NCBI RefSeq assembly: GCF_000426185.1
Contig: NZ_AUEW01000001.1
Span: 868,001 to 932,000 of the forward strand
Source: Cellulomonas sp. URHD0024
GTDB lineage: Bacteria; Actinomycetota; Actinomycetes; Actinomycetales; Cellulomonadaceae
Direction: 5' to 3'
DNA length: 64,000 nucleotides
Shown: positions 28,407 through 29,299 of the stretch, one piece after another
How the letters are laid out: each line of letters opens with the position of its first letter
Position numbering within the stretch: position 1 is the first letter of the stretch
Made by a program: the position numbers and the translations under genes
Notes under the pieces: model-generated
Seen by the model: only the letters and a program-made list of their open reading frames with translations
Told to the model about the DNA's origin: nothing
The model's database searches: none

Positions 28407-28432
28407 TCCGTCGCCCCACCCCGGACATGCAA

Positions 28433-28458
28433 GAAGCCCGCCGTTCCCGGCGGGCTTC
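28433..28458. terminator. Bidirectional terminator between tetR and bldC
   Basis: Perfect 11-bp arms gaagcccgccg / cggcgggcttc with a ttcc tetraloop, preceded by aa and followed by ctgcgtc. It separates the plus-strand TetR gene from the convergent bldC gene. Confidence 0.88.
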
Positions 28459-28494: not shown

Positions 28495-28710
28495 TCACTC
28501 GCCACGCTGCGTGGGAACACCCGTGAGCAGCGAGCGGACCTCGGACTCGTGGAAGCGGCGGTGGCCGCCCAGGGTACGGACCGCCGAGAGCTTGCCGGCC
28601 TGGGCCCAGCGCGTGACCGTCTTGGGGTCGACGCGGAAGAGGACCGCAACCTCACCGGGGGTGAGAAGGGCGCCCTGCGAGAGGGGGGCTTCGATGGTGG
28701 GAACAGCCAT
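28495..28710 (-). CDS. bldC: BldC-type MerR-like DNA-binding regulator
   Basis: 71 residues from ATG 28710, with an AGGAGAAC ribosome-binding site seven bases upstream. Core sequence LLTPGEVAVLFRVDPKTVTR, WAQAGKLSAVRTLGGHRRF, HESEVRSLL is almost the whole protein and matches BldC, a winged-helix protein that binds direct repeats cooperatively. In Streptomyces BldC holds back entry into development. In this non-sporulating-type background it probably controls growth-phase or surface genes. The message carries a riboswitch-like leader (28724-28806), see there. The upstream non-coding stretch is unusually long. Confidence 0.92.
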   Translation of the reverse strand: MAVPTIEAPLSQGALLTPGEVAVLFRVDPKTVTRWAQAGKLSAVRTLGGHRRFHESEVRSLLTGVPTQRGE

Positions 28711-28723
28711 GATCGTTCTCCTG

Positions 28724-28806
28724 TCGTTCGGTAGCTCGGCTGGCCTCGTGGGCCCCGTGGCTTTGCGTCCCCGCCTTGCAGCGGGTTTGCCGTTTGTCGC
28801 TGACAA
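28724..28806 (-). ncRNA. Class I cyclic di-GMP riboswitch (GEMM-I) in bldC leader
   Basis: Read on the minus strand the leader contains GGCAAACC, a stem CCCGCU-GCAA-GGCGGG with a GNRA tetraloop, then GGGACGCAAAGCC, a short GGCC/GGCC hairpin, and finally AGCCGAGCTACCG. This order and these blocks are the conserved core of the GEMM-I motif: the bases around GGACGCAAAGCC form the ligand pocket, and the GCAA tetraloop docks into a receptor in the second helix. The 3' edge ends about two bases from the AGGAGAAC ribosome-binding site of bldC, so control of translation initiation is the simplest model; no separate terminator is visible. Confidence 0.88.
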
Positions 28807-29299
28807 GGGGAACTATGCCCGGATCTGGACAGGTGTGCAACAGGCGGAAACGGCGGTTTCGCGCGCAAACGGGTGATTCAAACCCTCCAAAACCGGGCGG
28901 ACGGCCCCCTTCACCTTCCCTCGGAGAGGGGTCGTGTGTCAGCACCTGGCGGACGGTGCTGGCGCCGCGTCGCCACGGCGGCTCCCCTGCCAGATGCCGT
29001 CTGACCAGGAGTTATGTCGAGGGGCGAAGGAACCCGACACCTGTCCGTTTCGTCACGCGCGTCCCGCGCGGCGCGCCGTCCCGCCGCCTCCTGGGCACCT
29101 GTCCAACTTCCTCCCGGGACAGATGCGACAGACCCGGGCAGACTTCCCGACATGTGACGCGTTTCACCCGTTTGCCGTAGAGATGGGGCGCCTGCGAGGG
29201 GCGCGCGTCGTCGCGAGGCAGTCCGTCGACGGCGCTCGAGCCCGACTCGGAGGGGATCCTGCGCCGCCGGTTCGCGAGCTCCTTCGGTAGTGTTCCACT
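28807..29299. other. Long non-coding region upstream of bldC
   Basis: About 490 bases between the riboswitch and tRNA-Met. Open frames here have no plausible start context or similarity. The stretch is slightly less GC-rich than its surroundings near 28810-28900 and should carry the bldC promoter. I see repeated cacctg/ctgtccgttt-like and cctgtcc pieces but no clear inverted repeat or RNA structure. Confidence 0.45.

Follow-up and report, generated by a model that had tools for sequence, protein, structure and literature searches.

The leader of a BldC-family regulator gene in the window (the whole 64,000-nt stretch of DNA that was analysed) carries a class I cyclic di-GMP (c-di-GMP-I, GEMM-I) aptamer, a known riboswitch class joined to a new target gene. 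As judged from gene order, the aptamer is confined to an additional, lineage-specific copy of the gene, which we term bldC2. We consider it probable that the arrangement, taken as a whole, is a c-di-GMP-I riboswitch acting in cis on the bldC2 duplicate as a translational OFF switch. A full-text literature search on bldC with riboswitch or c-di-GMP, from which subscription papers were mostly absent, returned no paper with the aptamer–bldC pairing, and no description of it was found in the literature on c-di-GMP riboswitches in Cellulomonas or Streptomyces.

The bldC2 leader and its aptamer

Comparison of the whole window with all Rfam models placed RF01051 (c-di-GMP-I) at 28801-28727 of the minus strand with 58.2 bits (E 8.4e-9; gathering score 35), the match covering the full length of the model (1-87). 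A first, sequence-only reading had pointed to GEMM-I motifs in the right order on this strand, ending at a ribosome-binding site, and had proposed the RF01051 search; all three points are borne out. From 28817 to 28495 the strand reads CATAGT, eight bases on GUCAGCGACAAACGGCAAACC, a stem closed by a GCAA loop, then GGGACGCAAAGCC, the short P3 stem, AGCCGAGCUACCGAACGAC, AGGAG and ATG, with the aptamer ending a few bases ahead of the AGGAG of the BldC-family gene. The interval of that reading, 28495-28806, has to be redrawn: the observation stands, but the limits are those of a mechanical 103-aa open reading frame with a TTG start that runs across the aptamer, and this start was rejected on account of the insertions and deletions of single bases that distinguish the leaders of relatives.

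Within the c-di-GMP-I class this RNA is unremarkable, and automatic Rfam annotation would find it. We take G28791, A28764 and C28731 of the window to be G20, A47 and C92 in the numbering of Vc2, where A47 presumably sits between the two guanines of the ligand and C92 presumably pairs with the ligand; equivalents of all three are present in the window aptamer. In Vc2, G20 is the ligand selectivity base (PMC9262584). From its sequence, the bldC2 aptamer likely binds c-di-GMP.

Features of the bldC2 locus, in window coordinates, with the basis of each assignment
Feature	Position	Strand	Basis
-35 element TTGCAC, predicted promoter	28835..28840	-	position conserved in Cellulomonas leaders; some read TTGACT
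TGTCC in the -35/-10 spacer, possible operator	28827..28831	-	conserved upstream motif
-10 element CATAGT, 17-nt spacer from -35	28812..28817	-	predicted promoter
P1, whole span	28804 to 28723	-	outer pairs reach beyond the Rfam match
P1 outer 5′ strand GUC	28802..28804	-	pairs with GAC 28725-28723
c-di-GMP-I (GEMM-I) aptamer	28727..28801	-	full Rfam match and covariation
G, presumed equivalent of Vc2 G20, ligand selectivity base	28791	-	G in 52/54 leaders
P2 hairpin, GCAA tetraloop cap	28770..28785	-	4/6 pairs changed on both sides
A, presumed equivalent of Vc2 A47	28764	-	invariant, 54/54 leaders
P3 stem-loop	28733..28762	-	4/10 pairs changed on both sides
C, presumed equivalent of Vc2 C92, ligand-pairing base	28731	-	invariant, 54/54 leaders
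P1 outer 3′ strand GAC	28723..28725	-	abuts the Shine-Dalgarno sequence
Shine-Dalgarno sequence AGGAG of bldC2	28718..28722	-	sequence; also in related leaders
bldC2, 71-aa BldC-family MerR-type regulator	28495..28710 (ATG at 28710, stop at 28495)	-	NF033787
GC-rich inverted repeat GAAGCCCGCCGGGAACGGCGGGCTTC, candidate terminator common to bldC2 and the convergent TetR gene	28431..28458	-	sequence

To follow the arrangement across the family, we used a pattern made up of the aptamer core, the ATG and BldC codons, which matched 76 of 200 family genomes, 54 of the 60 in the genus of the window among them, whereas the reversed control pattern matched none of the 200. With five further Cellulomonas genomes read by hand, in which substitutions at one or a few core positions hid the aptamer from the exact pattern, aptamer and bldC2 stand together in 59 of 60. 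The sixth exception, G175, lacks bldC2 itself, and the six genomes were accordingly rejected as cases of aptamer loss. The arrangement recurs in five further genera of the Cellulomonadaceae, the named genome records that carry it belonging mostly to Cellulomonas and Actinotalea species, and across genera the presence or absence of the aptamer tracks that of bldC2.

When 54 leaders were aligned, 95.2% of the cells were paired. Nine pairs were changed on both sides, compared with 3.4 ± 1.1 in shuffled alignments (0 of 500 as high), and sliding the pairing partners abolished the signal. RNAalifold alone recovered P2 and P3, in which eight pairs were altered on both sides. The P1 pairings GUC:GAC and CG:CG hold in 95% and 99% of the cells, and because P1 varies little, covariation speaks weakly for it; one clade has GUUG:CGAC in place of GUC:GAC, a change on both sides.

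Ahead of the aptamer, 46 of 76 leaders have [CT]ATAGT, 6–9 nt from the GUC of P1; a generic consensus promoter scan did not report the TTGCAC-N17-CATAGT promoter of bldC2. The predicted mRNA start would fall about 7–8 nt past the -10 element, near 28804 and roughly at the first P1 base, which would make the leader almost entirely aptamer. Across genera, 55 of 76 leaders carry TGTCC at most 40 nt upstream, even where the -10 hexamer is missing. At the other end of the gene, the inverted repeat at 28431-28458 was not reported by a terminator scan, its T run being too short. The motif AAACGGGTGAA and its inverse also occur upstream of bldC2, at window positions 29162-29173 and 28866-28880, as a possible shared operator; motifs similar to AAACGGGTGAA, reading CGAACGGGTGA or TTCACCCG, stand ahead of other aptamer-controlled genes and of the bldC2 genes of relatives.

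bldC2 and the bldC orthologue

The open reading frame of bldC2 scores 100.9 bits against the NCBIfam model HTH_BldC (NF033787, cut-off 77), and its winged HTH is wholly conserved relative to that of Streptomyces BldC (PDB 6amk, 6ama; 92.6 bits, residues 5-71). The genome of the window holds two BldC genes, of which the other (G000:C13:12203-12406) follows purF and purM and carries no aptamer. In 12 of 12 Actinomycetes regions, from 11 other genomes and the window's own, a bldC gene lies 1–5 kb from purF–purM; these regions came from other Actinomycetes families and from genomes in which BldC is a match to that of Streptomyces in PDB 6ama (L294). The window gene does not occupy the purF–purM position that marks bldC orthologues, where Streptomyces BldC sits. 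This synteny therefore identifies the riboswitch gene as a lineage-specific paralogue at another locus, not as the bldC orthologue. The bldC leader of the sequence-only reading is thus a BldC-family leader, as it had said, but not that of the orthologue of Streptomyces bldC.

All family genomes in which the locus was read show the same division: the BldC copy next to purM lacks an aptamer, which instead accompanies a further copy elsewhere. In about 15 sampled genera of the Cellulomonadaceae without the extra copy, no aptamer was found ahead of bldC. A survey of Cellulomonadaceae leaders, which had also been proposed, hence met the expected aptamer at bldC2 but not at the purM-linked bldC.

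In a protein tree built on 58 columns only, the Cellulomonas bldC2 products fall in a 44-row riboswitch-linked branch apart from the orthologues (SH-aLRT 95), while 16 riboswitch-linked proteins, among them a 13-row group of the Actinotalea type, branch close to the orthologues in no firm position; a tree of so short a protein cannot prove a single origin of the bldC2 copies. Some Actinotalea-like genomes (L047 at G079:C31:119.7-120.3k, and G125) have two aptamer-linked copies, each with its own c-di-GMP-I aptamer. At L047 the bldC2-type genes form a tandem pair about 430 bp apart.

A duplicate with an aptamer, set against an orthologue without one, is a good example of duplication followed by regulatory specialisation. 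A structural paper has called the roles of BldC homologues unknown (PMC5859096), and culturable Cellulomonas would offer an entry point to BldC function outside sporulating actinomycetes.

Level and direction of control

In the model that we propose, the TTGCAC-N17-CATAGT promoter would start the mRNA at P1, and c-di-GMP, contacted by G28791 and C28731, would close P1. The GAC of the closed P1, touching the Shine-Dalgarno sequence, would keep the ribosome off, and at high c-di-GMP less BldC2 would be made. BldC2 would in turn bind BldC-type direct repeats, alone or jointly with BldC, because the DNA-reading region of BldC is kept. We infer control at the level of translation as the simplest reading, because the Shine-Dalgarno sequence follows the GAC of P1 at 0–4 nt in 68 of 69 leaders (6 nt in the remaining one) and leaves no room for a terminator.

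Among known systems, Vc2, upstream of tfoY in Vibrio cholerae, is of the same RNA class and likewise sits on a regulator gene, although the target family and the phylum differ. It is described as switching translation OFF, with P1 as the deciding element (PMC9262584), as in the model favoured for bldC2. Vc2 is reported to mask a ribosome-binding site distant from the aptamer, whereas in bldC2 P1 and the Shine-Dalgarno sequence are in contact and a separate expression platform is missing. Cd1, ahead of flagellar genes in Clostridioides difficile, has the same aptamer class but is a transcriptional OFF switch that works through a terminator (PMC9262584), for which the bldC2 leader has no room. 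The sequence-only reading had presented a transcription factor placed under direct second-messenger control; the aptamer is indeed in the leader, but the principle is not new, given that Vc2 controls tfoY.

As to direction, we lean towards OFF. The family is no guide, because two class I switches of V. cholerae respond in opposite directions (PMC6366702), and the existence of both directions lends some credit to a translational ON switch, in which c-di-GMP would free the Shine-Dalgarno sequence and the start codon. We regard ON as possible but doubtful, and give the same tentative standing to its ligand-free state, in which the 5′ strand of P1 would be held in a UUGUC-AGC-GACAA hairpin or the leader would be misfolded over the Shine-Dalgarno sequence. 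Minimum-energy folding gives this hairpin in the window leader and in several others from Cellulomonas, but it is impossible in leaders reading GUCAGCGAAAA, and the abutment of P1 on the Shine-Dalgarno sequence also speaks against ON. Enforcing the aptamer lowered the openness of the Shine-Dalgarno sequence in 34 leaders and raised it in 16, which argues weakly for OFF, with the mean going from 0.44 to 0.38, a small shift in thermodynamic folding that includes no ligand energy. The start codon became slightly more open (0.56 to 0.62; up in 30 leaders, down in 14), as ON would have it. We also considered masking of the Shine-Dalgarno sequence by a longer P1, extended past GUC:GAC into AGGAG, and dropped it: the extension averaged 1.30 pairs against 1.32 for permuted partners, no gain over permuted flanks, and the masking therefore draws no evidence from covariation.

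That the aptamer acts on mRNA stability or on transcription start instead of translation seems improbable to us. The mRNA probably begins at P1, and ligand binding would then structure its 5′ end; on the other hand, nearly all leaders retain the adjacency to the Shine-Dalgarno sequence although the rest of the linker varies, and no terminator lies between aptamer and Shine-Dalgarno sequence. RF01051 also takes in GEMM-Ib-type variants, which respond to 3′,3′-cGAMP, and two of the 54 leaders (L227 and L232) have A or C at the equivalent of G20. We nevertheless think it very unlikely that a different cyclic dinucleotide, 3′,3′-cGAMP for example, is the main ligand, since G occupies the selectivity position (role of the base, PMC9262584) in the window and in 52 of 54 leaders, and c-di-GMP enzymes are plentiful in the window's genome. 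The two exceptions, L227 (G194, 1390-1494) and L232 (G047, 1351-1452), are single bldC2 aptamers and may mark a change in ligand preference. A chance match or functionless relic is scarcely credible, excluded in our view by the conservation through the genus and the covariation, together with the invariant ligand-contact bases and the joint presence and absence with bldC2.

c-di-GMP signalling and other aptamers of the family

With six GGDEF and seven EAL matches, the window's genome encodes enzymes that make and break c-di-GMP. In Streptomyces, c-di-GMP times development through its receptor BldD, which directly represses bldC among its targets (review PMC4255298), and BldC activates the diguanylate cyclase gene cdgE (PMC6428758). 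All three Streptomyces controls have the BldD-like_C domain, the C-terminal domain family of BldD, but a search of seven Cellulomonadaceae genomes, the window's included, did not find it. In the class sample, RF01051 is absent from the Streptomyces group (f37). Control of a bldC-family gene by c-di-GMP would be common to both systems (PMC4255298 for Streptomyces), but BldD is a protein sensor at the promoter and the bldC2 leader probably an RNA sensor; the signal thus reaches BldC-type regulators through a protein there and, it seems, through RNA here.

Tentatively, we suggest that in the Cellulomonadaceae, seemingly without BldD, c-di-GMP control has moved from a promoter repressor to an RNA on a bldC duplicate, the original bldC being left signal-free, and that the dosage of BldC2 tunes nucleoprotein filaments shared by BldC and BldC2. 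If this is true, the link between c-di-GMP and BldC was kept while its sensor was exchanged, RNA for protein.

A role of bldC2 as a strict flagellar regulator under c-di-GMP was rejected, because 16 of the 17 Cellulomonas genomes (of 60) from which flhA is missing keep aptamer and bldC2, and the pair is absent from many Cellulomonadaceae genera that are flagellate; in some genera bldC2 may have a role in motility. In Actinotalea-like genomes (genus g9: G113, G066, G139, G107, G119, G157, G050, G008), some RF01051 sites lie about 11–27 kb from flhA, in the neighbourhood of the flagellar genes.

RF01051 sites number three in the window's genome, and at least one is present in 96 of 200 family genomes and in 43 of 395 genomes of the class. 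No aptamer with bldC was found in further families among 297 genomes of the order, nor did any of about ten readable RF01051 loci outside the family lie ahead of bldC. Other c-di-GMP-I aptamers of the family directly precede an orphan small protein of 38–57 aa in 21 of the 33 loci read; they include L001 (G000:C6:100762-100836) and L002 (G000:C1:603531-603605) in the window's own genome and L004-L033 elsewhere in the family. The small protein has no Pfam match; M1, P22, W29, A33, P43 and Q45 are invariant in 12 aligned sequences, and a reading of these frames as BldC fragments was rejected (profile comparison probability 0.9%). Downstream of it, the window's genome has a SHOCT/PLDc_N-like membrane protein once and an amino acid permease once. 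Elsewhere in the window, an ordinary bacterial RNase P class A RNA gene lies at 1994-2378 of the minus strand (298 bits).
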